A stretch of DNA of 64,000 bases, taken from positions 2,307,658 through 2,371,657 of the forward strand of contig NZ_CP028897.1 in assembly GCF_003072645.1 (NCBI RefSeq). The letters are read 5' to 3'. The notes beneath the pieces are model-generated. The model was not told the DNA's origin, did no database searches, and saw only the letters and a program-made list of their open reading frames with translations. The translations under genes and the position numbers were made by a program. Below are positions 1,159 to 63,871 of this stretch, in pieces (positions within the stretch are counted from its first letter, which is position 1; each line of letters starts with the position of its first letter). This DNA comes from Dongshaea marina (GTDB lineage: Bacteria > Pseudomonadota > Gammaproteobacteria > Enterobacterales > Aeromonadaceae).

Positions 1159-2126
1159 ATGGAACAGCAAATTCTGGTTGGGGATATTGGCGGGACCAAT
1201 GTACGTTTGGCTCTCAGTGGTCGTGAAACTGGAGCTCTGTCAGAGATCCGAACTTATCTGTGTGCTGACTACCCAACACCTGCCGCCGTGCTTCAGGCCT
1301 ATGGTGAAGCGGTTGGCGGGCTGCCAAAAGAAGCTTGCCTGGCCATCGCCTGCCCGGTTCAGGGTGATCATATCAGTATGACCAACCACACCTGGGAGTT
1401 TTCGGTGGAGCAGACCCGCCAGATCCTGGGTTTGGAAAAGCTGAACTTCATCAATGATTACACGGCGCTTTCCATGTCGGTTCCGGTATTGGGAGACGAT
1501 GATAAGGTACAGCTAAGCAGTAAGGGTGAGGCTCAGCCCCATGGCCCGATCGCTATCTACGGCCCGGGAACTGGGTTGGGAGTTGCACACCTGGTGTGGA
1601 GTGGCGATAAGTGGTTAAGTATTCCGGGCGAGGGCGGACACTCAGATTTTGCGCCGCACAGTGAGCTTCAGGATAAGGTTCTTAAACAGCTGCGTAAACG
1701 CTTTGGCCATGTATCTCATGAGCGCATTCTTTCCGGCCCGGGCCTGGCGAATGTGTATGAAGCACTGTGCATGATTGAGGGCGTCGAAGCTGAAGTGCTC
1801 AAGCCTTCTCAGATCACAGAGCTGGGCCTGAGTGATCGCTGCCCCATCTGTAAGCGGACCCTGGAGATCTTCTGTGCGGTACTGGGAAGCTTTGGTGGAA
1901 ACCTGGCGCTGTCGATGGGACTTTTGGTGGCGTTTATATTGCAGGCGGCATTGTTCCGCGCTTTATCGACTTTGTTGAGAAGAGCCCGTTCCGAGAGTTC
2001 TTTGATAGTAAAGGACGCTTCAACGATTACCTGTCCGCGATCCCAACCTATGCGATCACGGCAGAGCATCCGGGGCTGATGGGGGCTTCGGCCTGGATGC
2101 GTCAGCAGCTGGGTTATAAGATCTAA
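1159..2126 (+). pseudogene. glk: Glucokinase, single-base frameshift near the 3' end
   Basis: ATP-dependent glucose phosphorylation to glucose-6-phosphate in the cytosol. The first frame carries the phosphate-binding GDIGGTN (residues 8-14), AIACPVQGD, TNHTW, YGPGTGLGVAHLV, the active-site PGEGGHSDFAP, LSGPGLANVY and the CPICKR region, ending at about residue 254 in FGGNLALSMG. It then leaves the family pattern. The next frame continues it exactly (GGVYIAGGIVPRF, then PGLMGASAWMRQ) to a TAA at 2124-2126. Adding one G to the GGG at about 1917-1919 restores a 322-residue protein, the usual Glk length. As written the product loses its last quarter and gains an unrelated tail. The start has AAGGAG upstream. 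Confidence 0.9.
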
Positions 2127-2142
2127 TCACGGCTCCTCTACG

Positions 2143-2167
2143 GTCCTGCAGCCCTGAGCTGCAGGAC
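2143..2167 (+). terminator. Hairpin downstream of glk
   Basis: The arms GTCCTGCAG and CTGCAGGAC form a perfect 9-bp stem with a 7-nt loop, 16 bases after the restored glk stop. There is no strong T run, so termination is plausible rather than certain. It could also serve the convergent MarR-family gene. Confidence 0.55.
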
Positions 2168-2188
2168 TGCATCTTCACTCTCTGCGCT

Positions 2189-2689
2189 TTATTTTTTCAT
2201 CGTTTCGGGCCCACGGCTTAGAGCTTCGATTTTATCCGGATCTGCCATTTCTGCTGAATCTAATCCTGTAGCGATTTTGCTGCAGAGCTGACTGAATAAC
2301 TCTCTTTCCTCCTCTGTGAGAGGATCCAGGAACCTCAGCCACAGCTGTTGATTGACAGCGATTTGCTCTTTGAGAAGAGGTGCCTTGGGATCGCTTAATG
2401 AGAGTAGTTGAGATCGCCTGTCATCTGGATCCTGAATTTTGGTGATGAGCCCTAGCTTGGCAAGTCGGCTCAGTGAGCGGGTCAGGCTCTGCTGTTCACA
2501 GCAGCATCTGTGGGCGAGCTGGCGTTTACTGATAGCGCGGTTTGCATCAGACATCTCAATCAAAATCATCCGGTCCACCAGGGTGAGTTTATGCTCCCGG
2601 GCTGAGAGCTGCTCGCGGCAGCGGTTGATGCCGGAGGTGATGGTTCGCCAGTTGTGGGAAAGTTTCAGGTAGTCGGTCATCTGCACCAT
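2189..2689 (-). CDS. MarR-family transcriptional regulator
   Basis: A 166-residue protein with a MarR winged-helix core: a helix-turn-helix (ISKRQLAHRCCCEQQSLTRSLSRLAKLGLI) followed by the wing motif DPDDRRSQLLSLSD typical of the family. MarR proteins are dimeric repressors or activators, often of a divergent gene and often ligand-responsive. Here the divergent neighbour is an M20 amidohydrolase, and a 25-bp palindrome lies in the gap. Regulation of that neighbour and of itself is therefore a sound inference. An internal ATG at 2680 is an alternative start. The helix-turn-helix is unusually cysteine-rich (RCCCEQ), which may hint at thiol or metal sensing, though nothing else supports this. 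Confidence 0.85.
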   Translation of the reverse strand: MVQMTDYLKLSHNWRTITSGINRCREQLSAREHKLTLVDRMILIEMSDANRAISKRQLAHRCCCEQQSLTRSLSRLAKLGLITKIQDPDDRRSQLLSLSDPKAPLLKEQIAVNQQLWLRFLDPLTEEERELFSQLCSKIATGLDSAEMADPDKIEALSRGPETMKK

Positions 2690-2830
2690 GGGTTATCAGG
2701 GTTTTCGGCCAGCCTATCACAAGCCGACCGCAACTTCAGGGGCGACAGGTTTAAACCTGAAGGAATAACGATCCTGAATCTGACGCTCAAAAGAGGATAG
2801 ACAAGTCATTGCCGTGCCGATAGACTGAAA

Positions 2831-2855
2831 ACATATGACGCAGTGCGTCATATGT
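2831..2855. promoter_or_regulatory. 25-bp palindromic operator between marR-type gene and amidohydrolase
   Basis: Two 12-bp arms, ACATATGACGCA and TGCGTCATATGT, are perfect inverted repeats around one central G. The site is about 140 bp upstream of the MarR gene start and about 107 bp upstream of the amidohydrolase start. A long symmetric site in a divergent MarR intergenic region is most simply the operator. Confidence 0.7.
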
Positions 2856-2961
2856 GGCGATATAACAATGACACAGATCTCAGGCATCATGCTCAAACTT
2901 TTCATCAGCGATGCCAGCTGCTCAGTGTTCATGTATGTCAGTAACCAGCTTAGGAAAAACT

Positions 2962-4215
2962 ATGGAACAGTCAGTCGAATTTATCGAAAACACCCTGGTG
3001 GATTTTTATAAAGATCTTCATCAGCATCCCGAGCTCTCGGGACAGGAGAGTCGAACCTCGGCCAGGATCGCGAGGGCCATGGAACAATTGGATTTTGAAG
3101 TGACTCGTCAGGTGGGTGGGCATGGCGTGGTTTCTCTTGTGAGAAATGGTGAGGGACCCGTGGTGCTGCTACGGGCGGATATGGATGCGCTGCCGATGAA
3201 GGAGCAGACCGGACTTACCTATCAATCCAGAGCAACAGCCGATGGAAGTGGCAGGACACAGGTGACAGATGTTGCTCATATGTGTGGCCATGATCTTCAT
3301 TGCAGCTGGTTGCTGGGAGCCGCCCATTCACTCATGTGTCAAAAAGAGTCCTGGCAGGGAACCCTGATGCTGGTCGCTCAACCTTCTGAAGAGCTTGGAA
3401 TCGGGGCTCGCGGGATGTTGCAAGACGGTCTTTATCAGCGCTTTGCCAGGCCGGATTATATCTTGGGGCAACACAGCTGGCATCTGCCTGTGGGGACCAT
3501 TGGCCACTGTGAAGGTCCTATGATGAGTGGAGCCACTCACCTAAAGGTGATCCTCCATGGTAAAGGGGGACATGGCTCCCAGCCTGAGCTGACAGTTGAT
3601 CCGATTGTGCTGGCGGCCCATATTATCGTGCGCCTCCAGGGTATTATCTCCCGGGAGATCCCGCCACAGCAGCAGGCGGTGTTGACGGTTGGTTATCTGC
3701 ATGCAGGTAGCAAGGCGAATATCATCCCGGATTCAGCGGAGTTCGCAGTGGATATTCGAGCTTATGATGATGGGATCAAGCAGCAGATTTGTGATGCGGT
3801 GCGACGAATCGTCCGGGCGGAGTGTGAGGCGAGTCGCACCCCCAGGGAGCCGGAATTTGAGGAGATGGTGAATCTTCCTGTGACCCGAAATACTCCGGGT
3901 CTACATAGCTTTGTTAAAGCCGCGCATCATCAGACATTTGGAGCTGAGCCGGTCAGAGATATCGAGCGGGTCACCGGCAGTGAAGATTTTGGTTACTACG
4001 GTGGTTTCACCCAGCAGCCCATTCCGAGCCTGTTCTGGTTTACCGGGATTGCCGGGCAGGCTCAGCTCGATCCGGATACCGGTTTGGGACGTTATGGCCC
4101 CCATAACCCGGGGTACGCCCCCGCCGAGAGCGATCTGCTGCAGGTTCTCCATCAGGGTTCACTGGCTATGAGCAGCGGCGCACTCGCCCTGCTGCAGCAG
4201 CACCCTTCGCTATGA
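2962..4215 (+). CDS. M20-family amidohydrolase (hippurate/aminoacyl hydrolase-like)
   Basis: A 417-residue di-metal peptidase of the M20 family, which removes acyl groups from N-acyl amino acids or related amides in the cytosol. Metal-ligand motifs are visible: LRADMDALP, the CGHDLH block, the catalytic pair in PSEELG, the later QHSW and the dimerisation-domain GKGGHGSQP. The C-terminal metal-ligand region is TGSEDFGYY plus GPHNPGY. I chose the ATG at 2962 because TTAGGAAAA precedes it and the family sequence begins there. The gene is divergent from the MarR-type regulator and ends 110 bp before cadB. The substrate cannot be read from the sequence. Confidence 0.85.
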   Translation: MEQSVEFIENTLVDFYKDLHQHPELSGQESRTSARIARAMEQLDFEVTRQVGGHGVVSLVRNGEGPVVLLRADMDALPMKEQTGLTYQSRATADGSGRTQVTDVAHMCGHDLHCSWLLGAAHSLMCQKESWQGTLMLVAQPSEELGIGARGMLQDGLYQRFARPDYILGQHSWHLPVGTIGHCEGPMMSGATHLKVILHGKGGHGSQPELTVDPIVLAAHIIVRLQGIISREIPPQQQAVLTVGYLHAGSKANIIPDSAEFAVDIRAYDDGIKQQICDAVRRIVRAECEASRTPREPEFEEMVNLPVTRNTPGLHSFVKAAHHQTFGAEPVRDIERVTGSEDFGYYGGFTQQPIPSLFWFTGIAGQAQLDPDTGLGRYGPHNPGYAPAESDLLQVLHQGSLAMSSGALALLQQHPSL

Positions 4216-4325
4216 CTTTCAGATGGCGTCTGTGGCTATAGTATCGAATGGCTGGTGACTCACTGTCCAATCACCGAACTCTCTTCTAGGCTTTAACTCG
4301 TGGATCATAGTTAAAGGGATTTAAT

Positions 4326-5639
4326 ATGAATTCTGCGAAGAAGATAGGACTCATCGCCTGTACCGGTGTGGTTGCGGGAAATATGATGGGAAGTGGTATC
4401 GCCCTGTTACCGGCTAATCTGGCTTCGATCGGTTCGGTGGCAATTTTTGGCTGGATCATTGCTCTGGTTGGAGCAATCTCGCTGGCCTATGTTTACTCGC
4501 GGCTGGCCACAAGGAACCCCCAGGAGGGGGGCCGATCGCCTATGCCGGAGAGGTCTCGCCCATTTTGGGTCATCAGACCGGTATCCTCTATTATCACGCG
4601 AACTGGATCGGTAATCTGGCGATCGGGATCACCGCAGTCTCTTATCTGTCGGTGTTTTTTCCTGAGCTTAACAACCCGGTTGCAGCCGGGATCGCGACGA
4701 TTGTAATTGTGTGGATTTTTACCTTCATCAACCTGATGGGGGCTCCTGGGTCAGTCGCCTGACGACCCTGGGCCTATTTCTGATCCTGATCCCGGTGATC
4801 TGCACCGCGGTTCTTGGTTGGGGCTGGTTTGATGCAGCGATCTACCGGGCGAATTGGAATGGAAGCGGCGGCACCGATATGCATGCCATCAGCAGTAGCA
4901 TTATCTTCTGTATGTGGGCTTTTATCGGGATCGAGTCTGCTGCCGTGAGTACCGGATTGGTTAATAACCCTAAGCGGACCGTACCTCTGGCAACTATGGG
5001 GGGACGATACTGGCCGGCGTCGTCTATATTCTGGCGACTCAGGTGATCGCCGGAATGTTTCCCAATGCCCAGATGGCGGCATCGGGGGCTCCCTTTTCTA
5101 TGAGTGCGACCACTATGTTTGGCTCCTGGGCTGCACCTGTGGTATCTGCCTTTACTGCGTTTGCCTGTTTGACCTCACTGGGCTCCTGGATGATGCTGGT
5201 GGGACAGGCCGGAGCCAGGGCTGCTCATGATGGAAACTTCCCCAAGGTGTACGGCGAGATAGACAGCAAGGGCGTTCCTAAAAAAGGATTGCTGCTCGCC
5301 TCTGTCAAGATGACGATCCTGATGGTGATCATCACTATGGTGAGCTCCGGGGGAGGAGGGCATGCCGCCGATCTGTTCGGGATCCTGACCAGCATCGCGG
5401 TGCTGCTGACCATGCTGCCCTATTTTTATTCGGCGCTGTGCCTTATTAAGATGGAGGGGGCAACCACTCGCAGCGTGTTGGCCCTGATCGCCTGTGTCTT
5501 CGCCTCGCTGTTTTGTCTGTATGCGCTGGCCACAGCAAACCAGCACGATCTGGCCGGAACCATAGTGGTCAGCCTGATTATTATGATGTTCTACTCCTAT
5601 AAGGTGGGACGTAAACAAGGTAACAGTGCGCAATCATAA
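4326..5639 (+). pseudogene. cadB: CadB lysine/cadaverine antiporter, three single-base frameshifts
   Basis: An inner-membrane APC-family antiporter that imports lysine and exports cadaverine, paired with CadA in acid resistance. The gene begins MNSAKKIGLIACTGVV, nearly identical to known CadB, but the frame breaks three times: at the G6 run 4526-4531 (needs G7), the G5 run 4738-4742 (needs G6) and the G6 run 4998-5003 (needs G7). Restoring one G at each gives continuous CadB sequence (PIAYAGE, then WVSRLTTLG, then TILAGVVYILATQ) of about 438 residues with 12 expected membrane segments. All losses are of the same kind and the rest is fully conserved, so an assembly error is likely. It precedes cadA, as in Escherichia. 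Confidence 0.9.
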
Positions 5640-5644
5640 AAATG

Positions 5645-5669
5645 AAGCCTGATCAGTAGACAGGCTTTT
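5645..5669 (+). terminator. Hairpin between cadB and cadA
   Basis: AAGCCTG and CAGGCTT form a 7-bp stem with a 9-nt loop, followed by two more T. It sits in the 73-bp cadB-cadA gap. It may partially terminate or protect transcript ends, setting the antiporter to decarboxylase ratio. Confidence 0.45.
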
Positions 5670-5712
5670 GACACCAAGTTCGGTCGCTTTTGTAAGTGAA
5701 AAGGAGTTTATT

Positions 5713-7848: not shown

Positions 7849-7867
7849 AGAAATTGTTTGGTTAAGA

Positions 7868-7894
7868 GACGGAGCCAGGCGCTCCGTCTTTTTT
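7868..7894 (+). terminator. Intrinsic terminator of cadBA
   Basis: GACGGAGC and GCTCCGTC form an 8-bp GC-rich stem with a 5-nt loop, followed directly by TTTTTT. It lies 20 bases after the cadA stop. Confidence 0.9.
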
Positions 7895-7901
7895 GGGGAG
7901 C

Positions 7902-9305: not shown

Positions 9306-9441
9306 GATCATAAGAGTAGCTAAGTATGGGGCGACTATAAGTGACTCATCTGGGTTAGACAAGCGCCAGAGCTGAAGGGACGGAGCCAAAAGAGCTGAGC
9401 TATAGTATAGAGAGTTTGAAGAGCCGGTGAAGGAAGCTCCT

Positions 9442-10607
9442 GTGGATCGCTTGTCTTTTAGCTGTTATCCATTACTTTGCAAGCCGCTACGGATCTTAAA
9501 GCGGGCGCTGCTTCCGCTGGCTCTGACTCTTGGGATCCTCGCTTGTGCCACGGCACAGCCTCTAAGAGTAACGCTTTTGAATCCAGATCCTCCCGGTGAT
9601 CCCTTCTGGGATCTGCTGGTCTCATTCATGCAGGCATCTGCTGATGACCTCGGCGTACAGCTAAAAATAATCAACTCTGAGCCCGGAAATCGATTCAAGA
9701 GCCTGCAGCTTGCCCGCCAGGAGCTTTCCGCTGTGGATAAACCCGATTATTTTGTCACACTGTTGCTCAACCGGGTTGCTCCCCTGATGATTGAGGAGGC
9801 CGAAAAAAGAGGGGTTAAGTTTTTCTCAGTCAATTCAGATCTTTCCCGGGACGAGAGAAAAAAGCTGGGTGAACCCAGGGAGCGTTACAAAAGCTGGATC
9901 GGCAAGATGTCTCCTGATGACAGCTATGCCGGGTATCTGTTAGGAAAGAAGTTAATCGAGAAAGCCCGCGAGAAAAATCTTACCGATAAACAGCATCAGA
10001 TCCAGATCATCGCGATTGCGGGGGAAGGGGGACTTCGGTTTCCGATGACAGGCTCGGCGGATTAAGACGTGCAGTGAGCGAATTCCCGGATGTCCGGTTA
10101 CAACAGGTTGCTTATACCGACTGGAGTCAGCAGATGTCGAGGCAGAAGGCTGCGGGATTGCTGCTTCGCTACCCTGAAACAACCATTGTTTGGGCAGCAA
10201 GTGACTTCATATCGCTTGGGGCCATCGACGCAATTGAGCAGCTGGGCAAGAGTCCGGGGATAGATATTCTGACCGGTGGTATCGACTGGACCGACAGAGG
10301 TCTGCAATCGGTTTACGAGAAGAGGATGACAGTCACAGTTGGAGGGCATTTCATGGAGGGTGCCTGGGCGCTGATCTTACTCCATGATTACCATCATGGG
10401 ATCGATTTTTCTGATTCCCATGGGGTTTGGCTCAAGACAAAAATGGAAGCGTTAACTTCAGACAATGTTCACCCTTATCTGCAGCAGTTTGGTACCCACA
10501 ATTGGAATCAGATCGACTTCAAACAGTTCTCAAAGTTTCATAATCCGCAGCTTACCCACTACCGGTTTGGTCTCAGTCATATCCTGAATGGACAGGGGGA
10601 GTCATGA
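9442..10607 (+). pseudogene. Periplasmic sugar-binding-like protein (type 1 fold), paralogue 1, frameshifted
   Basis: A type-1 periplasmic binding protein of the Peripla_BP_4/LacI-like fold. It has a signal peptide (LLPLALTLGILACATAQ) and the core motifs GDPFWDLLVSFMQ, KPDYFVTLLLNRV, KFFSVNSD, WIGKMSPDDSYAGYLLGKKL, DWSQQMSRQKA, IVWAASDFISLGAIDAI and ILTGGIDWTDRG. The frame breaks at the G5 run 10020-10024. With one G added, IAGGRGTS continues into the downstream frame and matches paralogue 2. The restored protein is about 388 residues. GTG at 9442 has GAAGGAAG upstream; GTG at 9427 is possible. Its stop overlaps the next gene's ATG, and no permease or ATPase gene is near. A role as a sensor partner is inference. 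Confidence 0.8.
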
Positions 10608-11760
10608 GAGCAACATGGACACTAATCAACAGAACATTGCTGGTGGCAACAGTACTCCTGTTCGCAGGATTCACAACTGGCATGACGAGCGCTAAAGAGC
10701 CCCTTAAAGTGACTTTTATCTCGCCCGTCGCTCAGGGGGATCCCTTTTGGGATGAACTGGTCTCTGTGATGCAGGCCTCTGCGGCAGATCTTGAGATCCG
10801 CCTGAAAGTGTTGCACTCAGATGCAGGGAATCGCCAGCTGCTGGAGCTAGCGCGCCGGGAGATCCGTACCGCAGATAAACCGGATTATTTAGTCAGCCTG
10901 CTGCTCAATCGGATCTCTGGTGTGATCATGGAGGAGGCCCGGCTGCAGGGGATCAAGTTTTTCTCTATCAACTCCGATGTGTCTGAGAGCGATACCCAAA
11001 TCATCGGCGAGCCCAGAGGGCGGTATGCAAACTGGATTGGTAAGATGTATCCCGATGATGAGTATGCGGGTTATATCCTGGCAAAGAGTCTGATTGCCCA
11101 GGCCCGGGAAAAGAAGCTTGCAGATCCTAAGGGTGAGCTTGAGATCATCGGGATTACCGGGGGGGTCGGAAACAGGGTGGCGGCAGCCAGGGGGCAGGGG
11201 CTACGGCGTGCGGTCGCTGAAACCTCTCATGCCCGATTGAATCGACTCGCAGATACAGACTGGAGTAAGGCTGAGTCATATAGGAAGTCGATGCAGTTGC
11301 TTGATCGCTACCCACAGACAAGTATCATCTGGAGCGCCAGTGATCTCATGTCCCTGGGAGCTGTCAAGGCGATCAAGGAGTTCCACAAATCTCTGGGCAC
11401 AGAGATCTTAACCGGTGGTATCGACTGGACGGCACAGGGGATCCGTGCTCTGCAGTCCAAGGTGATCTCAGGGACTGTGGGTGGCCATTTCATGGAGGGG
11501 GATGGGCTCTGGTTCTGATCTATGATTATCACCATGGCCGGGATTTTGCCGATGATCCCGGAACCATTATAAAAACCCGGATGTATCCACTCACCCGCTC
11601 TAACATCAATCGCTATATCCGGCTGTTTGGCCAAAGGGACTGGCAGCAGATCGATTTCAGGCAGTATTCAAAGGTACTTAATCCTCAGCTCAAAGCTTAT
11701 GACTTTTCTCTGGAGAAGCTTATCAGCCCCCGTCAGAAAGGGGAGGTTGCAGCTCAATGA
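10604..11760 (+). pseudogene. Periplasmic sugar-binding-like protein, paralogue 2, frameshifted
   Basis: A tandem paralogue of the preceding gene, sharing nearly every block: GDPFWDELVSVMQAS, KPDYLVSLLLNRIS, KFFSINSDVSES, WIGKMYPDDEYAGYIL, GITGGVGNRVAAARG, DRYPQTSIIWSASDLMSLGA and ILTGGIDWTAQG. The N-terminus is a signal peptide (LLVATVLLFAGFTTGM). The frame breaks at the G5 run 11497-11501, and one extra G gives GGWALVLIYDYHHG, which aligns with paralogue 1, and a stop at 11758-11760 (385 residues). ATGA overlap with paralogue 1 implies translational coupling. The ligand is unknown and no transport genes adjoin. Confidence 0.8.
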
Positions 11761-19495: not shown

Positions 19496-20792
19496 ATGAA
19501 CCATGAGAGGCTGACCCCAGAAGAGCTTGAGGCGCTATTGTTTGAAGATGACAATGGTGTGGAGCAGATCGAGCCTGTGCAGTTTAACTGCCTGGATGAT
19601 GCCTCAATGAGCTGGGCTGAGCATCATTTTTCAGATACGCCTGAGCTGATGATCCGGCGCTGGCTCGATCCCGAGCAGTGGCTGGCCAGTCGCTTAAGCG
19701 GCGAGCATCTGATAGCCCTTCATTGCCAGCCTCTTCCCGAAGCGTTAGAGATTGGATTGAGGCAAGCTGTAGGAGGGGGGTATGGTCCGTAGCCTCTCCT
19801 GAGGTGCGAAGCCAGGTTGAGCAGGCAAGGCAGCGATTACTGGGGGCCTGGCATGAGTGGTTGGCTTGCCAGAGAGTCTTGTTGTTCGAAGATCATCCTT
19901 TTCAGGGCAAGATGTTGCTTCATCAACTCAAGCAGGTGGGGTTAAAGCAGTGTAGCTGGCAAAAAGGTGATCCCCGGGAGGTCGCAACCTGCGCCCGGGA
20001 GCCCTGGGATCTGATGATCTGTGATCTCTGGTTGGGTGGGGAGGATCTGTTGAGCTGTCTTGAGTCCTGGAAAGACAGTGAGACACGCGCTCCCTTATGG
20101 CTTCTCAGTGGCCAGGAGTCTCAGGTACTGCAAAGCATAGCCGATCTGTTGAGCCGCCAGGGCTGGCCTGTTGTCGCGGCGACCTCTAAACCTGTGGATG
20201 AACAGGGGATCAAGCGGGTTCTGCTTTTTCACTACCTGTCTCAAACCCTGCGCAGTCAAACACGCTTTATCCAGTCCGGGGGATCAGCAACTGGTATGGT
20301 GATGAGGAGGGGCGCTATCTTTTGAGCCTGGCTGAACAGAGCCTGGCTGAGAAGCTTTGTGAATCTTCGGATGGTTTAGTGTTTGTGCATCACAGACTGT
20401 TTCCACAGCAGCATTGGCCTGAGCTTCGGGATTGGCTTGCTGAGCTCTCTTTTGATCTTTCGCGCCTGGTGATTTTGCTCGATGACAGCTTCAGTCTGCA
20501 GCAGGATCTGGCGCTGTATGCCCTGGTGTTACAGGCACGTTTATCCGGGGTTCGCTTAGGGCTGATGGTTAATCACGGTGATCGATTGCCTTTTGCGCTG
20601 CTCGATACCCTGCCACTGGAATACCTGTTTCTGTCTGCGGTGGCGACTCGTAAACTCTCGACCCTTAACTCAGAGCCTCTTAAGCGCTTATTAGAGAGCG
20701 CCCTGCAACAGGGTATCGGTGTGTATGGCAGCGGTCGGGGAATCGAGTCCCGGCAGCTGGCGCAACAGTCTGGTCTGAGTGGGCAATGGTGA
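19496..20792 (+). pseudogene. Receiver plus degenerate EAL-like protein, two frameshifts
   Basis: With one G added at the G6 run 19775-19780 and one at the G5 run 20278-20282, the three consecutive frames join into one 432-residue protein. The N-terminal 100 or so residues match nothing I know. A receiver domain follows: acidic FEDH, phosphoacceptor Asp in MICDLWLGG, Lys in TSKPV. The C-terminal part keeps the spacing of an EAL domain (LVILLDD, GVRLGLMVNHG, LDTLPLEYLFLS, GIGVYGSGRGIESRQL), but the EAL motif, the DDFG pair and the catalytic Lys are lost. It is probably not a phosphodiesterase, and may act as a phospho-regulated c-di-GMP effector or adaptor. It stands alone after ihfA. Confidence 0.65.
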
Positions 20793-21938: not shown

Positions 21939-23062
21939 TTACTGGTTTGCTTTGAGAAGCTGCCAGTATTTCTGGTAGAGCTGGTTGGCCTTATCGCCAA
22001 CATCTTGCTGGAATTTGCCGTGCTCGATGACGCTTTCAGGCGGGTAGAGGGCCTGATTGTCGATCACCTTCATCAGCTGAGCAAAATACTGGTGTTGCTT
22101 GCCCTTTTTGTCATCCATGGTTTTTTGGTAGTTGACCTTGATGTATTCCATCATCGCCTTGTTCGGGATCGGCTCCCCAGATCATGGAGGATCTTGGCGG
22201 CAATGTCCGGGCGCAGGATGAAATTGATGAACTTGTAGGCTGCATCCACATGCTTGGCGTTCTTTGGAATGGCCAGAGTGTCACTCCAGAAGATCGCACC
22301 CTCTTTGGGGTAGATATATTTAAGATCCGGCATATCCTTGAGCGCTTTGAATGCAGAATCACTCCATAGCATTCCCAGGCCTACATCGCCTGAGAGATAG
22401 GGCATGCGTGGGGTGTCGGCATTAAACAGCAGAACGTTTGGCATCAGCTTTTTAAGGTATTCATAGGCCTGTTTGATCTCGGCGGGATCTTGACTGTTCG
22501 GATTAAGGCCCAGAACCATAAGCGCCATCTGGAATACTTCGCGGGGATCATCGGTCAGTAGCAGTTGGCCTTGCCACTTTGGATCCCAGAGTTGTTTCCA
22601 GCTGTCGATGTGAGTATCAGGCAGGATCTCAGGGTTGAGGCCGATGGCGGTACTGCCAAACACATAAGGAACACAGTATTGGTTGCCCGGATCATAGGGG
22701 CGATTGAGCACCTGAGACTCTAAATTTTTAAGATTTGGGATCTTGGCGTGATCCAACTTGTGCAGCATCCCCTGGGCGGCCATGCGCTGCACATAATAGG
22801 TTGAAGGGCCGATGAGATCGAAGCTCTCTTTAGCATCGCTTTTTTGCAGCAATTTGAGCTTGGAGAAAAGCGCTTCGTTCGAGTCAAAGGTGGAGACATG
22901 AACCTCAATTCCGGTCTCCTTGGTGAACTCCTGATAGACAGACTGCGGGATATAGTCTGCCCAGTTATAGATAGTCAGGACCTTGCTCTCTGCGGCATGT
23001 GCCAGGGATGCCAGAGAGCCCAAGAACACGAAGGCGAGTGTTCCGATCAGTTTTTTCATCAT
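21939..23062 (-). pseudogene. potD: PotD, spermidine/putrescine-binding protein, C-terminal frameshift
   Basis: The periplasmic polyamine-binding subunit. It has a signal peptide (LIGTLAFVFLGSLASLAHA), TIYNWADYIPQSVY and FTKETGIEV, and the polyamine-pocket features YYVQRM, WSDSAFKAL and GAIFWSDTLAIPK. The frame breaks near its end at the plus-strand C4 run 22175-22178. One more C (G on the coding strand) gives DLGEPIPNKAMM and continues to a stop at 21939, a 374-residue protein. As read, the last 70 or so residues are lost. It is last in the potABCD order of Escherichia, overlapping potC by 4 bases. Confidence 0.92.
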
Positions 23063-23826: not shown

Positions 23827-24679
23827 GGAGTTCCACCTTCTTGTTGAGGAATTTACCAACCCGGTAATAGATAAAGACTAAGAGGGCCATCAGCAGGGTC
23901 AGCATCACACTCAGTGCTGAGCCAAAGGGCCAGTCGCGGGTATCCAGGAACTGGCTCTTTATCACATTACCGACCAGCAGGTTCTTAGCCCCTCCCAGCA
24001 GATCCGGAATGTAGAACATCCCCATCGCCGGAATAAAGACCAGTAGGCATCCGGCGATGATCCCGGGCATGGTCAGGGGAATGACAATTCGCCAGAAAGT
24101 TTGTAGCTTACCTGCACCCAGATCATGAGAAGCCTCCAACAGACGTTTATCGAGCTTCTCAATCGAGGAGTAGAGGGGAAGCACCATAAAGGGCAGCAGT
24201 ATATAGATGAGTCCGATGATGACCGCAGTTTCGGTATAGAGGATCCGGATCGGGTGATCGATGATCCCAAGGGACATCAGACTCCAGTTAAACAGGCCAC
24301 GCATTCCAAGAATGGTTTTAAGGGCATAGGCGCGGATCAGTGAATTGGTCCAGAAAGGTACGATCACCAAAAATAGAGCCAGGGGCTGCCAGCGCTTTGG
24401 CATCTGGGCAATGAAGTAGGCAAAGGGGTAGCCAATCAACAGGCAAATCCCGGTGGCGACACAAGCCATCTTCAGGGAGTGAAATACCACCTTTAGATAC
24501 AGAGGATCGAATAGCCTCAGGTAGCTGTCCAGACTAAAGGTATACTGGATCAGATTGACATCATCTCGTGTCAGGAAGCTGGTGACCAGGATCATCAGGT
24601 TAGGGACGAACACGAACACCGCCAGCCAGCCGACGATCAGGGTGATGGCAAAATTACGAAAGGTGTTAGTGTGCTTCAT
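23819..24679 (-). CDS. potB: PotB, polyamine ABC transporter permease
   Basis: A 286-residue permease partner of PotC. Its EAA loop is [24 protein letters not shown]-terminal [18 protein letters not shown] leads into a first TM. Other family blocks are [15 protein letters not shown] and [19 protein letters not shown]. The ATG at 24679 overlaps the end of potA by 14 bases, implying coupled translation. Confidence 0.95.
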
Positions 24680-25772
24680 AGGGCAGAACCACCTCCCAGC
24701 TATCGACCCAGGTGATTGAAACCTTCTGGCCCAGGCTATAATCGAAATCCGGATCGTCTTCGTCAAAGAATTCACTGATCATCAGCTGCTGACCCGATTC
24801 AAGCTCAACCACAGAGTCCAGGGTCGCACCCTTATAGTTGCGTTCGGTGATCTTCCCTACAATTCCCTCTGCCTGCTCGTTTTGCGCGATCTCCTCCATC
24901 CTGAGATCTTCGGGGCGCAACAGGACACAGATCTTATCGCCGACCTTAAAAGGCTCCTGAGTATGAACGATGCAGTTGCGCCCTTCGACTCTGGCTTTCC
25001 AGGTCTTATCATCGGTTTTTTCCAGCAGCTCACCATCCATGATGTTGCTCTCGCCAATGAAGCGGGCTACAAACAGGTTGTTAGGCGACTCATAGATATC
25101 GCGCGGGCTACCCTGCTGCTCAATGCGCCCGTCACGCATCACCACGATGCGGTCAGCCATCGACAGGGCTTCCTCCTGATCGTGGGTCACAAAGATAAAG
25201 GTGATCCCAAGCTGACGTTGCAGCCGCTTGAGCTCGATCTGCATCTGTTTACGCAGTTTATAATCCAGAGCGCTCAGGGATTCATCCAGCAGTAACACTC
25301 TGGGTTTGTTAACCACGGCACGGGCAATCGCAACGCGTTGTTGCTGGCCACCGGAGAGTTGGTGAGGCTTGCGCTGAGCCAGGTGATCGAGCTGCACCAT
25401 TTTCAGGGCCTCCATCACTCTGGGTTTTATCTCCGGCTTTGCAACCTTTTGCATCTTAAGACCAAAGGCAACATTGTCGAAGATGGTCATATGTGGGAAG
25501 AGGGCGTAGCTCTGAAAGACCGTATTGACATGGCGCTGCTCAGCTGGCTGCTCAGTAATAGTCTCGTTATCCAGGGTGATGGTGCCGGTATCGACCTGCT
25601 CTAAACCTGAGATCAAACGCAGTACCGTTGTTTTACCACAGCCGGACGGGCCAAGAATGGTGAGAAATTCACCATCATAAATTGTTAAATCAAGCTGTTT
25701 TACTACAGGCTTGCCGTCGAAGCTCTTGTTTACACCCTGGAGGGTGACGATGCTATTTTTCGCAGCGCTCAT
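24666..25772 (-). CDS. potA: PotA, polyamine ABC transporter ATPase
   Basis: A cytosolic ATPase that drives spermidine/putrescine uptake. It has Walker [11 protein letters not shown]-loop [10 protein letters not shown], signature LSGGQQQR, Walker [14 protein letters not shown]-loop VTHDQ and a C-terminal TOBE-type regulatory domain ([20 protein letters not shown]). I chose ATG 25772 (368 residues with GGAGA about 10 bases upstream); ATG 25799 is possible. It is first in the potABCD operon. Confidence 0.95.
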
Positions 25773-30859: not shown

Positions 30860-30898
30860 GCATTTTCGCGCTTGTGATTTGAGTGAGATTAAAGGGTG

Positions 30899-33300
30899 AT
30901 GGGTAAGCAGGGGATATTACTCAGCAGCTCACGAGGACTGGCGGCTGGCTGTAGCCTACTGTTACTGCCAGGGCTTAGCCACGCCTTCTCGCTGACTCCG
31001 CAGGATTGCCTAGAAATGCAGGCGCAACCCATGCTGGTTGATATCAAGCTTAACGGCCAGAGCAAGGCTCATGGCTTAAGTGGCAAGTTGGTGTGTATGC
31101 TGCCGGATCAACAAGTGCTGATAACGTATGAGGGGCTAAAGCAGCTCGGTGCTGTGAACCTCAAGCTTCTTCCGCATAAGCAATATCAACAAAAGAGTCT
31201 GATACAGTTTCCTTTGGGCAAGAAGCCTGGTTATACACTCAATAACCTCACCCAGGAGCTGATGCTCAACCTGCCGATTGCCAATCTTCCCAAGGGAAGT
31301 CTGGATGCCGGAGGGGATAGCTATGGCAAGGTGAGGCTGGATGAGACCCCGGGAGCCTACCTTAACTACAATCTGACCGGAACCAGTGGCAGTGATCAGG
31401 ATAGCACCACCAATCTTTATGCTACCCTTGGCCAGTTTGGAGGGCTCCCAGGACTGCGTAGTAGCAGCTTTGCCTATAACCATACTGCTGAGGATTCAGA
31501 GCTTATTCGCTACGATACAAGTTGGCGGCTGGATGATGCGAGCTCACTCATTACCCGGGAGTTTGGGGATACCACCACGGTTGCACCCACCTGGGGGGGA
31601 ATGCGCGCCTTGCCGGATACAAAATCTATAAAAACTATGATCTGAATCCTAAGTTTGTGACCTATCCTCTGCCATTTGTACTGGGGCAGGCGACTACCCC
31701 TACTTCGGTGCAGCTGACCCTGGATGGGGTGCCTATCAGCAATGGTTATAGCGTCAATCCAGGGGCTTTTCAGATCAATAATATCCCTGTGGTTAGCGGT
31801 AATGGCACGATTCAAGTCAAGCAAACAGATATTTACGGCAAAACCACCACCTATGCGATCCCCTATTTTGTCAATACCAGTCTACTCAAGGCGGGGCTAG
31901 ATTCTTATGACTTCGAGGCCGGGGTGCTGCGGGAGGATTATGGGACAAAAAGTTTTGACTATGGCCAGGCAGCAGTGGCTGGTTCTTATGGCTATGGGAT
32001 GAACTCGAAGTGGACCAGCCGTTTTCATGGGGAGCTTCTTTCTGAACAGCAAACCTTTGGTACAACCCAGCAGTTCCAATTGGGTCTTGGGATCGCCAGT
32101 TTAAGCAGTGCCCTGAGCCACAGCTCGTCGGGTGCCGGGATCCTGGGGCAGCTCGATTATCAGTACTCAAAGGGCGGATTTAGCGCCGGGGGCTACTACA
32201 AACTCACCTCAGATCATTTTACCCAGATTGGTGAGTTGGGCCAGAATATACTGTCCGCTCCTCGGCAGCTTGGTTTATCGATAGGTTATGGGGATGAGAG
32301 GCTTGGTAGCGTGAGTGGAGCCTATAGCTCTACGAGCTCGGGTGAGAGTTTCACAGCCAGCTACAGCAAATCGATAACCGAACAGCTGAGCCTTTCGCTG
32401 AGTCAGCAGCTGGACTTTGGCAATGTGAATAACTGGAATCTTGGTTTGTCGGTGAGCTGGAACTTTGCATCCAATGATAGCCTGAGCTTTGATTCAACCC
32501 GCTCCTCCTCGGATAATGACCTGAGCCAGCAGCAGAGCATGAGCTATTCCCACAGTAGTGGCGATCTCTATGGGCTTTCTTATAACCTGAGTGCTGTCCG
32601 AAACCAGCAGGAGCAGGAGGACTCACAGAACAAATATAATGGCTCGATGCAGCTGCCTACTTCTAAGGGGACTCTTTCAGGAATGTTTGCCACCCAGCAA
32701 AATAGCAATAGCTATTCGCTGAATTATTCCGGAGGACTGGTGTATATGGAAAAGCAGCTCTTTATTGCGCCGGAGATCTATGACAGTTTTGGGGTTGTGA
32801 GTACCGATGGGGTGGCTGGACTCCCCATCTACTCCAATAATCAGTTTCTTGGTAAAACTGACAGAAATGGCTATCTGCTGGCGCCCAACCTTCAGTCATT
32901 TTATCAAAATAGCATTGAGATCCAGCCCAATGATCTGCCGATGGATTACCGGGCCGATAGCTTTAAGAAAACTGTGGTATCCGGCTATAACTCGGGGAGC
33001 TTTATCGACTTTGGGGTACATAAAGAGCGGCAGGGCCTCATTACCCTCAAGCGTTCAGACAAAAAATCGATCCCGGCCAGTAGTTATGTTGAGTTAACCG
33101 GAGATGGTAGCTTTAAATCTCGTGGCAGTTATATGGGGATGGATGGGGTGCTTTATCTGTCTGAAATCAGCTCTAAGCAGAAAAAGCTAGAGGGTAGGGT
33201 ATCCCTTAAAAAAGGTAAGAGCTGCAAATTCTCAGTCAACCTGAAAAAATATAAAACGGATCTCTTTCGAGATGAGATCGCCTGTGAGGTGAGTCAATGA
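30899..33300 (+). pseudogene. Outer-membrane pilus usher (CsuD-like), single frameshift
   Basis: Fimbrial usher of about 800 residues, which forms the outer-membrane pore through which pilins are assembled. It has an export signal (GLAAGCSLLLLPGLSHA), an N-terminal region, then barrel, plug and C-terminal domains (YSFEAGVLREDYG-like strands, YMEKQLFIAPEIYDSFGVV, MDYRADSFKKTVVSGYNSG). The frame breaks at the G7 run 31593-31599. Adding one G converts TWGGMR to TWGGNARLAGYKIYKNYDLN and restores a full-length protein ending at 33300. Its stop overlaps the next ATG (ATGA). The start is ATG 30899 (GTG 30896 also possible). Confidence 0.88.
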
Positions 33301-55479: not shown

Positions 55480-55500
55480 TTGGTCAGAACCTCGTTGTAA

Positions 55501-55535: not shown

Positions 55536-55713
55536 GCTGCTCTACACCAGAGGCGATCATTGTGCTGAGTTTTGTCACACCCGAGAGCCAATAGAGTATT
55601 GAGATCTGAGAGTTGGTGTTATCTTGAGTCGCTGTTTTGATGATGCACCTGCCATGGGTGGCTTTAATCGGCAGAACACTACACTCGGAGCTATTGCATA
55701 GGGAGGAGAATAG

Positions 55714-58118: not shown

Positions 58119-59086
58119 GTTATCCCTGGCTGGAAGAGCCCTGGCAGCAGCTATTGACTCAGAAGAACAACCAGCGCTTCCCCCATGCACTGCTGTTACA
58201 GGCTCCGGATGGAATGGCGCACCAGGAGCTGCTTAAGCAGTTAGCAAAGCTGCTGCTGTGTGAGGCTCCAACTCCTCAGGGGTATTGTGGTCAGTGTCAC
58301 TCTTGCCGCTTGTTTGAGGCGGGTAATCATCCGGATCTGTTGCAACTTGAGCCTGAAACTAAAACCATAGGGGTGGATGTGATCCGGGTTTTAGGCGAGC
58401 GCTTTGCCAAGCGTCCAACCCTTGGGAGGGCTCAGGTCGCACTCATTGAGTCCGCCGGGCGGCTCACCGAGAATGCGGCTAATGCCCTGTTGAAAACCCT
58501 CGAAGAGCCGGTTTCGGATAGCTACCTGTTTTTACATTGTCAGAGCCGGGATCAGCTATTGCCGACCATTACCAGCCGCTGTTATCAGCAGATCCTGACG
58601 GCCCCGGCGGAAGCCATAACCCAGAAGTGGCTTGCACAGAGGCTGCAGCACCCTCCTTCCATGACTGAGCTGCGTCTTAATCAGGGGCTGCCACTTCGAG
58701 TGCTTAGATTTTGTGAAAAGCAGGGTGGGGAGGAGCGCAAGCTGATAGAGGCGATTGGCAAACTTGCTGACTCACCGCAGCAGGTGATGGTTATTCGGGA
58801 TCTCATTGCCGAGGAGTTTGAAGAGCGTCTCAATTGGTTGCTCTATTTCATTCAGGATCTTCAGCGTTACCTGCTGGGTTGCTCCAGCGAGAGCTGGGTG
58901 TGGCAGCAAGCCAAAGCATCGGTTGAAAGCCTGGGGAAACGGTCGTCACTGGCAAAGGTTCAGCGCCACTATCATGGGCTGCTTGAGCTTAAAAGGCAGG
59001 CGAGGCCCGGTACCCTGGTTAATCCAAAGTTGCAGCTTATGTCCTGGCTCAGTCTGTTTTATGAGGATTGCTGCTCGAGACGCTGA
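58112..59086 (+). CDS. holB: DNA polymerase III delta-prime subunit
   Basis: Clamp-loader component. 324 residues with the zinc motif CGQCHSC, ESAGRLTENAANALLKTLEEP and SRDQLLPTITSRC. TTG start overlaps tmk by 7 bases. Conserved tmk-holB order. Confidence 0.95.
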   Translation: MLSYPWLEEPWQQLLTQKNNQRFPHALLLQAPDGMAHQELLKQLAKLLLCEAPTPQGYCGQCHSCRLFEAGNHPDLLQLEPETKTIGVDVIRVLGERFAKRPTLGRAQVALIESAGRLTENAANALLKTLEEPVSDSYLFLHCQSRDQLLPTITSRCYQQILTAPAEAITQKWLAQRLQHPPSMTELRLNQGLPLRVLRFCEKQGGEERKLIEAIGKLADSPQQVMVIRDLIAEEFEERLNWLLYFIQDLQRYLLGCSSESWVWQQAKASVESLGKRSSLAKVQRHYHGLLELKRQARPGTLVNPKLQLMSWLSLFYEDCCSRR

Positions 59087-59177
59087 TTCTCTACGGCTCT
59101 GTGCCGGGGTAACCACTTAGAATTCAGCAGTTAATTGGTCTACCTTGATAAAGGGAGAGTAGTCGCAGGCAAGGGCT

Positions 59178-59600
59178 ATGGACAGCGATTCTAAAACATG
59201 TTTAACCCTGAACATTCCGATCGTTGACCGGCAACATCAATGGTTGTTTGAGCTGATTGAAGAGCTGGGACAGATGAAGCCATCCGGAACAAGTAAGCGA
59301 AAAGTGGCTATCATACTCTCAAAGCTGCTTGATTACTCCCATTATCACTTCGAGACGGAGGAGAAGCTGTTCCGGCTCAATGAATATCCGGTTGCCGAGG
59401 AACACCTGGAGGATCATGAGCACTTTGTGTTTACTTTTAATAAGCTCAGAAAGGAGTTTGATAAGGCAGAAGATAATCAGCCGGAGACAGAGGCGGAGCT
59501 TATCATCAAAATCCACCGCTACCTGCTGAGATGGTGGACACATCATATTCTAGAAAAAGACAGCCAGTATGTTGATTTTATTAAGAATACTGAGATCTAG
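59178..59600 (+). CDS. Bacteriohaemerythrin
   Basis: A 140-residue di-iron oxygen-binding protein. The metal ligands of a haemerythrin domain are seen in order: His in RQHQWLFELI, H..E in HYHFETEEKLF, H in EEHLEDHEHF and H/D in WWTHHILEKD. Such proteins bind O2 or NO in low-oxygen growth. It lies between holB and tatD, normally adjacent in Escherichia. Confidence 0.88.
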   Translation: MDSDSKTCLTLNIPIVDRQHQWLFELIEELGQMKPSGTSKRKVAIILSKLLDYSHYHFETEEKLFRLNEYPVAEEHLEDHEHFVFTFNKLRKEFDKAEDNQPETEAELIIKIHRYLLRWWTHHILEKDSQYVDFIKNTEI

Positions 59601-60048
59601 CCGATTGCTTTAGTTGGTTTGTCACTTACCCGGATATTATTTTATGACAGGCATCCCCCTGTATGCTCGATGCCATTGCTTTCGCTACGTCACGAGGCAG
59701 CAACGGCGATGCTGGCGATGGGTCTAAATGCTCCCCGAACAACCTCCTTCGATATAAAACCTATATAGGCCCTCGTGCTTGTTATCCATGACGCGGTTCA
59801 TACCTATCAAGCATGGGGGTCGTTCAGCCAGGATCTCACTGCAGCAACGGCTTCACATAAAGCACATCCGTCCTCCCCTGAGATCTTCAATCCAACAGCT
59901 TACGTTCGCATTATCTGCAGATGAGCTTTTCACCGCCTTAACTCCAGTTAGAAAGTGGGCTGTGATTGCTATAAGATGCTTAGTCATGATTTGAAGTTAT
60001 GAGCAGCGATAAATGAGCTGCGGTTATTCATTTTACCAGGAGTGTTAG
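59601..60048. other. Non-coding or decayed region between the haemerythrin gene and tatD
   Basis: 448 bases with only short chance ORFs on either strand, none with family similarity that I recognise. It may hold a gene remnant. In some related bacteria pilZ lies between holB and tatD, but no PilZ motif is seen. The AGGAG before GTG 60049 belongs to tatD. Confidence 0.4.
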
Positions 60049-60843
60049 GTGTTACTCGTTGATTCACATTGTCATCTCGATCGCCTTCTTTATTGTGACG
60101 AGCTTCCCTCACTGGAAGCGGCCCTTAAGCAAGCCAGCCAGCGCGGAGTTGGATTGTTCCTCAGTGTCGGCGTGACATTGGATGGTTTTGCCGAAATGAT
60201 TAAGCTGGTTGAGCCCTATCCATCTGTGCATGCATCCTGCGGCGTTCATCCCCTGAGTATCGCCGATGGGGTCGATATGGCGCAGTTACGTGAATATGCG
60301 GCGCACCCTAAGGTGGTGGCGATCGGCGAGACCGGCCTTGATTATTACTATGCGCAGAACCAGGCGGAGCAGCAACAAGCATTTGCCGGGCAGATTGAGC
60401 TGGCGGCTGAGCTGGCCAAACCCCTTATCATCCACTCCCGGGATGCCAATGCCGATACCATAGCTCTGCTCAAGGCCCATGGTGGTGAAAAAGCGGGGGG
60501 AGTGATCCACTGCTTTACCGGCGATCAGGCGATGGCTGAGCAGGCCCTGGAGCTTGGGTTTTATATTTCGTTTTCCGGGATCATCAGCTTTAATAGTGCC
60601 CAGGCGCTACGAGATGTGGCGGCTAGCATTCCACTGGAGAGATTACTGGTTGAGACTGACTCACCCTATCTGGCTCCCGTGCCATATCGGGGGCAGAGTA
60701 ACCGCCCCGCTTACACCCGGGTGGTGGCAGAGAAGCTTGCCGAGCTCAAGGGGATCGGCCTCGAAGAGTTGGCTGAGATCACCACCAATAACTATCTGAA
60801 ACTGTTTTCGATCCGGGATCCACAGCCCTTTGTTGTCGATTGA
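60049..60843 (+). CDS. ycfH: TatD-family metal-dependent hydrolase (YcfH-like)
   Basis: A 264-residue TIM-barrel phosphoesterase/DNase with metal-ligand motifs DSHCHLD, GETGLDYYY, IHSRDA, HCFTGD and ETDSPYL. GTG start with CCAGGAG upstream. It follows holB in order with the Escherichia ycfH. Confidence 0.93.
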   Translation: MLLVDSHCHLDRLLYCDELPSLEAALKQASQRGVGLFLSVGVTLDGFAEMIKLVEPYPSVHASCGVHPLSIADGVDMAQLREYAAHPKVVAIGETGLDYYYAQNQAEQQQAFAGQIELAAELAKPLIIHSRDANADTIALLKAHGGEKAGGVIHCFTGDQAMAEQALELGFYISFSGIISFNSAQALRDVAASIPLERLLVETDSPYLAPVPYRGQSNRPAYTRVVAEKLAELKGIGLEELAEITTNNYLKLFSIRDPQPFVVD

Positions 60844-61002
60844 ACCGGTAGCAGGAGGTACCTCCGTGGTTGATTTGTGAACCTGTGATCCACGGCAGTT
60901 TTTTCGCTGGGTGAAGAAACACTTTGTTACTTTTCTATGTTAGAATCGCACCACGTCTGCGATGTAATAATGCGGATTAGAAAAAACAAAGGGAATTAGA
61001 AA

Positions 61003-61194
61003 ATGAAATTTTGTACTGACAACGGCCCAGTTGATATTGAACCTCAAGAGATCACTCAATGCTCCTCCATCGCAGGAGGCGCGCGGACCATGGTGGAGTA
61101 TCACGACAGTGAACAAAACCTGTGCCGGGTGGTGGTTAATGAAAACCCTAACCAAATGCGTATGACTATGATGGCTTCGCCACAGAAGCTATAA
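61003..61194 (+). CDS. 63-residue protein of unknown function
   Basis: A small cytosolic-looking protein with three Cys (FCTDN, TQCSS, NLCRV) and a Met-rich C-terminus (NQMRMTMMASP). It has a clear 5' leader and is followed by a hairpin, so it is probably a real gene. No known family recognised. Confidence 0.6.
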   Translation: MKFCTDNGPVDIEPQEITQCSSIAGGARTMVEYHDSEQNLCRVVVNENPNQMRMTMMASPQKL

Positions 61195-61202
61195 GGTCAA
61201 AT

Positions 61203-61227
61203 GGCACAACCTCACTTAGGTTGTGCC
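61203..61227 (+). terminator. Hairpin after the 63-residue gene
   Basis: GGCACAACCT and AGGTTGTGCC form a perfect 10-bp stem with 5-nt loop CACTT. No immediate T tract. Confidence 0.65.
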
Positions 61228-61411
61228 TGCTCCCTCCTTCTCCTTCTTTATTTTATCCAAGCCATTTCGCTGGTTTATTGCTCGCCTGTCTCTCCTTGTT
61301 CCATTATTTAATGGGGAACATAGCTAATTTTCACCCGTTGTCGGGTATCATGATCTGATGCAGGGAGTCGGATGGATAATCCTCCACAAGGACTGATTAA
61401 TGTGAGGTTCA

Positions 61412-63091
61412 ATGTTTTTAGAGCAGGTTGACGTAGTTGGTTTTCGGGGTATCAGCCGTTTAAGCCTCAAGATGAGTTCAACGACCGTTTTGATCGGTGA
61501 AAATGCCTGGGGTAAGAGTAGTTTTCTGGATCTCTTGTGCCGGATCCTGGGTCAGGATTCCGGGCTCTATCAATTCAGTGAGTCCGATTTTCATCAGCCC
61601 TGGGAGGATGAGCTGGAGTCGGCCAGTCATCTGCATGTAGTGCTCACCTTCAGAGAGCGACGCAGCGGCAGCAGTCAATCCAAACGCCTGGAGCACTTTA
61701 AGCCGGTCTGGTGTGAGAGCCGGCGCCGCGATAAATACCAGCGGATCTACTATAGGCTCTCGGCAGAGCACAGTGGGCGGGGAGTCTCCACCGAACACAG
61801 TTTTTTGGATCGCCATGGCCACTCAATTGAACTGGAAAACAGCCAGCAGCTATTGCTGGATCTGGTGGCGATGAACCCGGTGATCCGCATTCGCGATGCC
61901 CGGGCGAACCGTGAGCTGGGAGAGACCGAGCTGGAGTGCAGTCCTGAGAGTCAGGAGGACGGCTCGACCCACTCTCTGGAGCTGCGTTTGGAGCAGTTGA
62001 CCCACAAGCTCAGTGAGATGCCGCAACAGCTCTCCGAGAGCGAGGTCCGTGATGGAATGCATGCGATCCGTTGCCTGCTTGAGCACTACTTCCTTTCTTT
62101 TGGTCAGCGTCATCAGCCCCAGCGGCGCGCCCGGGATATCGCGATCAAGCCGGTATCGATGCAGGGGCTGAGTAACCTGACCGATCTGGTGCGCGGCACC
62201 GACAATCGCCACGCCAGGCTTGCTTTGATGGGAGTGGTAGGCACCCTTCTCACCGAGGGACGTACCCGGATGCTGCGTCCGGATGTACGGCCGATTTTGA
62301 TCGTAGAAGATCCTGAGAGCCGCTTACATCCAACTTTGTTGGCGCTGGCCTGGGGGCTGGTGGAACAGCTACCGGCTCAGAAACTGGTGACCACCAACTC
62401 GCTGGATCTGCTGGCATCCATTCCCCTTAATCAGATCCGCCGCCTGGTGCGCCATCAGCATAAGATTGAGGTTTATCGGCTGGGCAATGAGTTTTACTCG
62501 GCCGAGGATCTGCGCAAGATCGCTTTTCATCTGCGACTGAATCGTCCGGGCTCTTTGTTTGCCCGCTGCTGGCTGCTGGTGGAGGGGGAGACTGAGCTAT
62601 GGTTACTCTCAGAGTTAGCGCGGGTGTGTGGCTATAGCCTGCGCGCCGAAGGTGTGCGGATCATTGAGTTTGCCCAGTGTGGGATCAAGCCACTCATTAA
62701 GCTTGCCCGGGATTTTGGGGTGGAGTGGCATCTTTTGACCGATGGCGACGAGGCTGGCCTCAAGTACGCGAATACGGTGCAGATCCGTCTGGAAGGGGAG
62801 CGGGAGAAGGATCGGCTGACTGTGTTGCCGGCACGGGATATTGAGCATTTTCTGTATAAGAACGGCTTTGAAGAGGTCTACCGAAAAGCGGCGGGCTCTG
62901 CGGGTAAGCGCAACATGCCGCAGCGACGGATCATCGAGAAGGCTATCTCCCGCTACAGCAAGCCGGGGATGGCGCTGTCGATCCTGGAGGCGATAGAGGC
63001 GCAACCTGAGTCTAGTATTGAAAAGATCCCATTGTTATTCCGCCAGCTATTTGCCCGGGTGATTAGCCTGGCAAGAAGGCAAGCGGGTTAA
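61412..63091 (+). CDS. ybjD: YbjD-like OLD-family ATPase with Toprim domain
   Basis: A 559-residue protein. It has an N-terminal ABC-type ATPase (GFRGISRLSLKM, Walker A GENAWGKSSF, LLIVEDPESRLHPTL as Walker B) and a C-terminal Toprim-type nuclease part (LLVEGETELWLL, LTDGDEAGLKYA). The match to Escherichia YbjD is strong throughout. OLD-family nucleases act on DNA, sometimes in phage defence, but YbjD itself is a widespread core gene of unknown role. It stands alone, with no defence partners next to it. Confidence 0.93.
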   Translation: MFLEQVDVVGFRGISRLSLKMSSTTVLIGENAWGKSSFLDLLCRILGQDSGLYQFSESDFHQPWEDELESASHLHVVLTFRERRSGSSQSKRLEHFKPVWCESRRRDKYQRIYYRLSAEHSGRGVSTEHSFLDRHGHSIELENSQQLLLDLVAMNPVIRIRDARANRELGETELECSPESQEDGSTHSLELRLEQLTHKLSEMPQQLSESEVRDGMHAIRCLLEHYFLSFGQRHQPQRRARDIAIKPVSMQGLSNLTDLVRGTDNRHARLALMGVVGTLLTEGRTRMLRPDVRPILIVEDPESRLHPTLLALAWGLVEQLPAQKLVTTNSLDLLASIPLNQIRRLVRHQHKIEVYRLGNEFYSAEDLRKIAFHLRLNRPGSLFARCWLLVEGETELWLLSELARVCGYSLRAEGVRIIEFAQCGIKPLIKLARDFGVEWHLLTDGDEAGLKYANTVQIRLEGEREKDRLTVLPARDIEHFLYKNGFEEVYRKAAGSAGKRNMPQRRIIEKAISRYSKPGMALSILEAIEAQPESSIEKIPLLFRQLFARVISLARRQAG

Positions 63092-63158
63092 ATTCAATAT
63101 TATGCCATCATACCTATTGTTTAAACTTCAGTTAAAAACCTGTCTACAGGAGTAAAGC

Positions 63159-63871
63159 GTGCTTGAGAATTTCTATCAGCCCATAGCCCTCATCTTCTCC
63201 CTGATGGGCTCCGGGGCGCTGCTGATCTTATGGGTGATTATCCGCAAGGCAGAGCTTTGCCCAGGCCAGTATGGGCGGATCCTTGAGAAGCTTTTTTCGG
63301 TATGGGTATTACAGCTTTGTGGAGCTTTGTTTGGTTTGAGTGGGGAGTTAATCCCTGGGCATTGGGCTGCCTGTGTGCAAGTGGCTTAGTGGGGATAGGC
63401 TTAAGCTTTTTTCTCTCCAGGGGCCGGGCTTCTCAGAGCATGATAGATCGAACCCTGATGATTTGTGGCTTTCTGAGTTTGATTGGGATCGTAATCCTGT
63501 TAGTGGTAACACAGCTTTGGATGGGAATTCTTGTATTGCTACTGTGTGGCGGCGCTTTTGCCCATCAGCTTTTGCTTAAGGCGGGGCACCGGCTGAACGC
63601 TTTTGATCTCATCTTGCCTCTGTCTGGTCTTGTCCTTGGGATCATCATCTTGATCTCTTTGCTGGGAACTATCCTGCTTGGTAAACAACTGCTATCCGTT
63701 TCTGAGCAGCTTGAACTCTTGGTTCGTAGCCTGTTTTTGATGGCGGCTCTGCTGGTGTGGTGCGCACCTCTATTGCTACAGAAAAAAGCGGCCCCAACCC
63801 TGCTGGGGATTGTCTGTGTGTTGCTGCTTATCTCTGAGTCGACCGGTTTGCATCTGCTGTTGCAAAGTTAA
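63159..63871 (+). pseudogene. Multi-TM protein, weakly DmsC-like, single frameshift
   Basis: The first frame gives an N-terminus with two TM segments and stops at 63389. The other frame continues from about 63345 with further hydrophobic segments to 63871. Adding one G at the G4 run 63342-63345 joins the two into a 237-residue protein with about eight TM segments. Pattern and C-terminus (LLISESTGLHLLLQ) are weakly like the DmsC membrane anchor of DMSO reductase. This is uncertain. Confidence 0.45.

Follow-up and report, generated by a model that had tools for sequence, protein, structure and literature searches.

Frame changes in eight genes of the window

The window considered here, a 64 kb stretch of DNA, spans positions 2307658-2371657 of the 5.03 Mb chromosome in a 5.11 Mb assembly of two contigs. 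A first-pass annotation had proposed that eight of its genes are interrupted by eleven single-base losses, all in coding-strand G runs. No congener was present among the 75 genomes searched in the family, and there was therefore no near relative for a base-by-base comparison. The window was compared with homologous proteins in all six reading frames. From the two-frame alignments we dropped rows scoring under 35 bits, the antisense rows, of which three came from the window and four from the random stretches described below, and one row with a shift of -10 (L112). A reference-free coding model was also applied to the window (64 kb) and to the random stretches, 20 segments of 20 kb drawn at random from the assembly (400 kb), with 20 stretches (400 kb) of one complete relative as the comparison sample. 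Start/stop overlaps of adjacent genes were filtered from the model events, which removed 21 of 68 events in the assembly under study and 11 of 24 in the relative.

A one-base frame change was found at all eleven sites, through homologues or the coding model, and ten of the changes fit the run to which they had been assigned; the terminal one lies about 30-38 bases upstream of its assigned run. The coding model alone called 7 of the 11 sites, rendered three further ones as the end and start of adjacent coding stretches, and did not resolve the site at 63342.

The first of these genes, glk (glucokinase; 1159..2123, plus strand), occupies two frames with the change at about 1917-1920, where the run is now G3 (1917). 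In 16 alignments, homologues pass from one frame to another at 1918 (net shift -1), the coding model places the change at 1960, and the first fragment matches positions 1-251 of the 314 of Pfam PF02685. The cadB-like amino-acid permease gene (4326..5639, plus strand) is divided into four frame pieces, with changes at about 4521-4532, 4738-4741 and 5001-5004 and runs of G6, G5 and G6 at 4526, 4738 and 4998, respectively. Two-frame homologue matches with a shift of -1 were obtained at 4521, 4739 and 5002 (47, 47 and 19 alignments), the coding model changes frame at 4531, 4749 and 4982, and the three fragments scanned all carry Pfam amino-acid permease matches. The cadA gene is a single open frame of 726 codons.

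Two paralogous genes for periplasmic sugar-binding proteins are each split into two frames on the plus strand. In the first (9427..10607; change at about 10017-10047), which contains G5 at 10020 and a further G5 at 10027, one relative places the break between 9933 and 10032, the neighbouring paralogue gives one match at 9505-10047 and another, in a different frame, at 10017-10364, and the second fragment matches Pfam PF13407. In the second (10604..11757; change at about 11497-11505; G5 at 11497; Pfam PF13407), one relative puts the break at about 11500 and the coding model at 11505.

The receiver-domain protein gene (19496..20789, plus strand), so named for a Pfam response regulator receiver match under its cut-off (E 0.0011), comprises three frame pieces, with changes near 19775-19804 (G6 at 19775) and within 20241-20415 (G5 at 20278). 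At the second site all nine relatives give a two-frame match, with boundaries spread over 20241-20415, and the coding model changes at 20282. At the first site the upstream-frame match is weak (20-28 bits) in seven of the nine relatives and the downstream frame begins at 19726, ahead of the assigned run, in four; the coding model changes frame at 19789/19804.

On the minus strand, the gene for a potD-like solute-binding protein (21942..23062; Pfam PF13416) is in two frames, with the change between 22175, where the run is now C4, and about 22070. The switch was seen with all 11 reference loci, its limits being 22175 on one side and 22067-22076 on the other. The corresponding coding-model event (22177) was removed by the overlap filter, and the site was counted through homologues only. 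Elsewhere on this strand, a pair of open frames shares about 110 bases (24666-24775), with a coding-model call of a one-base gain at 24670; this is probably a matter of start-codon choice.

The fimbrial usher gene (30896..33300, plus strand; G7 at 31593) is in two frames that change between 31534 and 31657: one relative puts the break between 31534 and 31606, and the coding stretches end at 31642 and start at 31657. Its second fragment matches Pfam PF00577 together with a sub-threshold PapC_C, and the Pfam scan gave no domain in the first. Finally, the terminal membrane protein gene (63159..63871, plus strand) gives a two-frame match in all nine relatives. Its upstream frame stops at 63311 or 63314, and its downstream frame begins at 63308 (five relatives), 63338 (three) or 63356 (one); the alignments of five relatives put the change near 63304-63311, away from the G4 at 63342. 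The window also holds an intact gene (61412-63091) with DUF2813 and OLD-like TOPRIM domains; proteins of this kind can be linked to phage defence.

One-base losses across the assembly

The coding model called 31 one-base losses in the 400 kb of random stretches, against 8 in the 400 kb of the complete relative (p = 0.0003). The window, with 6 losses in 64 kb, does not differ in rate from the random stretches (p = 0.38), and confinement of the phenomenon to the window was accordingly rejected. Extrapolated, this rate would amount to approximately 400 one-base-loss calls genome-wide, about 100 of which are expected from the background rate of the relative. Of the 31 losses, 22 have a G or C run of at least 4 no more than 15 bases away, our definition of a run-associated loss, compared with 20.8% of random coding positions (p = 3e-9); the remaining 9 have no nearby run. 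Nine sites in the random stretches were confirmed by homologues, all with a shift of -1, eight of them at G runs (one just GGG) and one at a C run. A minus-strand gene in a further stretch (L113), broken twice at G runs (at about 7216 and 7512), presumably encodes MetH; for the greater part of its length it matches a 1201-residue protein of the relative at about 68-73%.

One reading of these data is that the mutations are real and the genes lost in the strain, perhaps through a mismatch-repair mutator or relaxed selection. The frame changes do stand in the deposited sequence, and homopolymers are natural slip sites, but the asymmetry of the calls argues against it. Over 464 kb, losses outnumber gains by 37 to 10 (9 of the gains fall in the random stretches and 1 in the window; the relative has 5), although the 10 gains also indicate that not every call represents a homopolymer loss. 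Moreover, no loss was called at A/T runs of at least 5 (0 of 31, with 8.1% expected), a deficit that is not significant alone (p = 0.17; p = 0.07 over the 37 losses), whereas a mutator should slip at A/T runs too, and coding A/T runs of at least 5 are commoner than G/C runs of at least 5 (888 vs 618).

Ribosomal RNA copies and essential genes

We aligned the full-length rRNA copies, five of 16S and six of 23S, and recorded one-base indels; substitutions between copies are present and were not counted. Indels affect six columns of the 16S alignment, each in a G run, and five of the 23S alignment, of which four lie in G runs, for a total of 11. The run is short in a single copy at seven of the ten G-run columns, in two copies at one, in three at another and in four of five at the last, which may instead reflect a single insertion. 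The sole indel column outside a G run is column 146 of the 23S alignment, where a T run is one base longer in two of the six copies. Four of the seven private gaps, more than in any other aligned copy, sit in one 16S copy (L157, 3200-4735), which could be a single decayed copy or may be located in a low-coverage stretch; it would in any case mislead taxonomy. One rRNA gap falls within the 16S motif GACGGGGGCC, a universal primer region. Comparing rRNA copies is a rapid check that works from the assembly itself, with no need of reads.

Two conserved clusters were also searched with Escherichia coli protein queries, and 34 of the 37 genes found are in one frame, with ftsI, murF and zapD each split into two adjacent frames. 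All three are among the 20 genes that the dcw stretch (L213+L214, G000:C1:408001-448000) yielded, against none of the 17 in the rpsB-accA stretch (L215, L216); of the queries, 3 of 23 went unmatched in the dcw stretch and 2 of 19 in the dnaE stretch. Two-frame flags for lpxD, lpxA, murC, murD and murE proved to be cross-matches between paralogues and were discarded. In E. coli, both ftsI and murF are essential genes, and the remaining ftsI-like matches in the genome are paralogues of 27-28% identity. At the ftsI break a C5 adjoins a G5, so that the affected run cannot be named.

That ftsI, murF and rRNA copies are all hit makes genuine mutation very unlikely. The same applies to the simultaneous loss of polyamine uptake, glucokinase, pilus and lysine/cadaverine exchange, which the first-pass annotation had considered in case the breaks were real: identical slips occur genome-wide, in rRNA and in both of these genes.

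Preference for coding-strand G runs

All eleven breaks had been attributed to G runs on the coding strand, a bias that would point to strand-specific biology. Most of it dissolves into composition, since runs of at least 4 in the coding strands sampled number 1635 for G and 955 for C (1.7 times as many G), and 5 of the 22 run-associated losses in the random stretches lie at C runs. The 17 G and 5 C losses of these stretches do not depart significantly from the run counts (p = 0.12 against runs of at least 4; 0.17 against at least 5), while the window and random stretches together give 21 G and 5 C (p = 0.04 and 0.07, respectively). In the rRNA copies, 15 of 194 G-run copies and none of 57 C-run copies are short (p = 0.03, or 0.07 if the doubtful column is an insertion). 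By gene strand, 17 of the losses in the random stretches fall in plus-strand and 14 in minus-strand genes, but the excess of coding-strand G over C has p values of 0.03 to 0.17 depending on the set, in comparisons that did not pair G runs individually by length. What survives of the proposed bias is thus a modest, borderline excess, unexplained but weak, and the case for strand-specific biology is weakened by both the run counts and the losses at C runs.

Origin of the frame breaks

We conclude that the eleven breaks are almost certainly consensus errors, produced by uncorrected under-calling of G/C homopolymers, and not biology. The assembly would count some G/C homopolymers one base short throughout the genome, in the absence of correction with accurate short reads, and each missing base would shift the frame of a gene or leave a one-base gap in an rRNA. 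Under-calling of short G/C runs would explain the type of the lesions, their place, their spread and their indifference to function. Homopolymer under-calling had been suggested for the window from the outset, and it is borne out by the genome-wide occurrence of the losses, by rRNA copies differing in one-base G-run gaps and by ftsI and murF being broken alike. The runs would presumably be of full length in the DNA of the cell, and the data would have come from a long-read technology of the PacBio kind. Some observations do not fall in line: the residual coding-strand G excess and the strand trend in rRNA, restricted to G runs, are not predicted by symmetric read errors, and the losses away from any run, the T-run column of 23S and the model gains also speak against under-calling as the source of every call.

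An even less probable alternative is recoding, in which whole proteins are made from short runs through ribosomal frameshifting or through slippage of the polymerase on G runs. A cell with short runs could then live although ftsI and murF are broken, and the borderline G excess in the transcript sense would suit this idea. However, the rRNA gaps are untranslated, which excludes ribosomal recoding or frameshifting as the sole cause; many runs of equal length lie in intact frames, the longer run is present in other copies of the same rRNA, and the frames are intact in relatives. Nor are the split frames conserved, as far as programmed frameshifting is concerned: the potD relatives listed have one open frame without stops, mostly of about 350-400 codons (one of them, G009, consists of three adjacent matches), and the nine relatives used for the terminal protein are single open frames. 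It is scarcely plausible, too, that the short runs are real and that RNA polymerase in this lineage routinely inserts an extra G at G runs; if true, mRNAs and rRNAs would both be restored, with the same borderline excess as the sole hint. Least probable of all is phase variation, also raised by the first-pass annotation, in which the G tracts are contingency loci switching expression: the usher and transporters are plausible targets elsewhere, but phase-variable tracts are long, usually of eight bases or more, whereas the runs here have just 3 to 7, three breaks fall within cadB alone, and rRNA, ftsI and murF are affected.

Given homopolymer under-calling, conclusions about absent genes, pseudogene counts or metabolic gaps should be drawn from this assembly only with the support of reads.

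Comparison with known assembly artefacts

Homopolymer-length errors of this kind have been described for several sequencing platforms. Ion Torrent assemblies resemble the present one in that errors in homopolymer length create false pseudogenes and many frameshifted proteins (PMC7604302); they would fit less well with the restriction to G/C runs and with the two-contig assembly seen here. Nanopore-only assemblies likewise show mainly false deletions in homopolymers and fragmented genes (PMC12007338, PMC8812927). In the nanopore assembly for which the base composition of errors is given, A/T errors exceed G/C errors (PMC12007338), whereas no losses were called at A/T runs here, and a technology of the PacBio kind therefore fits better. 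Assemblies built from PacBio data only (HGAP/Quiver) are contiguous, with mainly single-base deletions at G/C runs and genes broken as a consequence (PMC4832174, PMC4888979, PMC5064100). Among the PacBio/Quiver examples, one retained 205 residual indels, almost all of them in homopolymers of G or C (PMC4832174), another 561 single-base deletions (PMC4888979), and in a third five G/C runs within coding regions were short (PMC5064100). The present assembly differs from these, as far as they are described, in that its losses reach runs of three and four, and its platform is one that we infer; in the type of error, the broken genes and the contiguity, it is like them.
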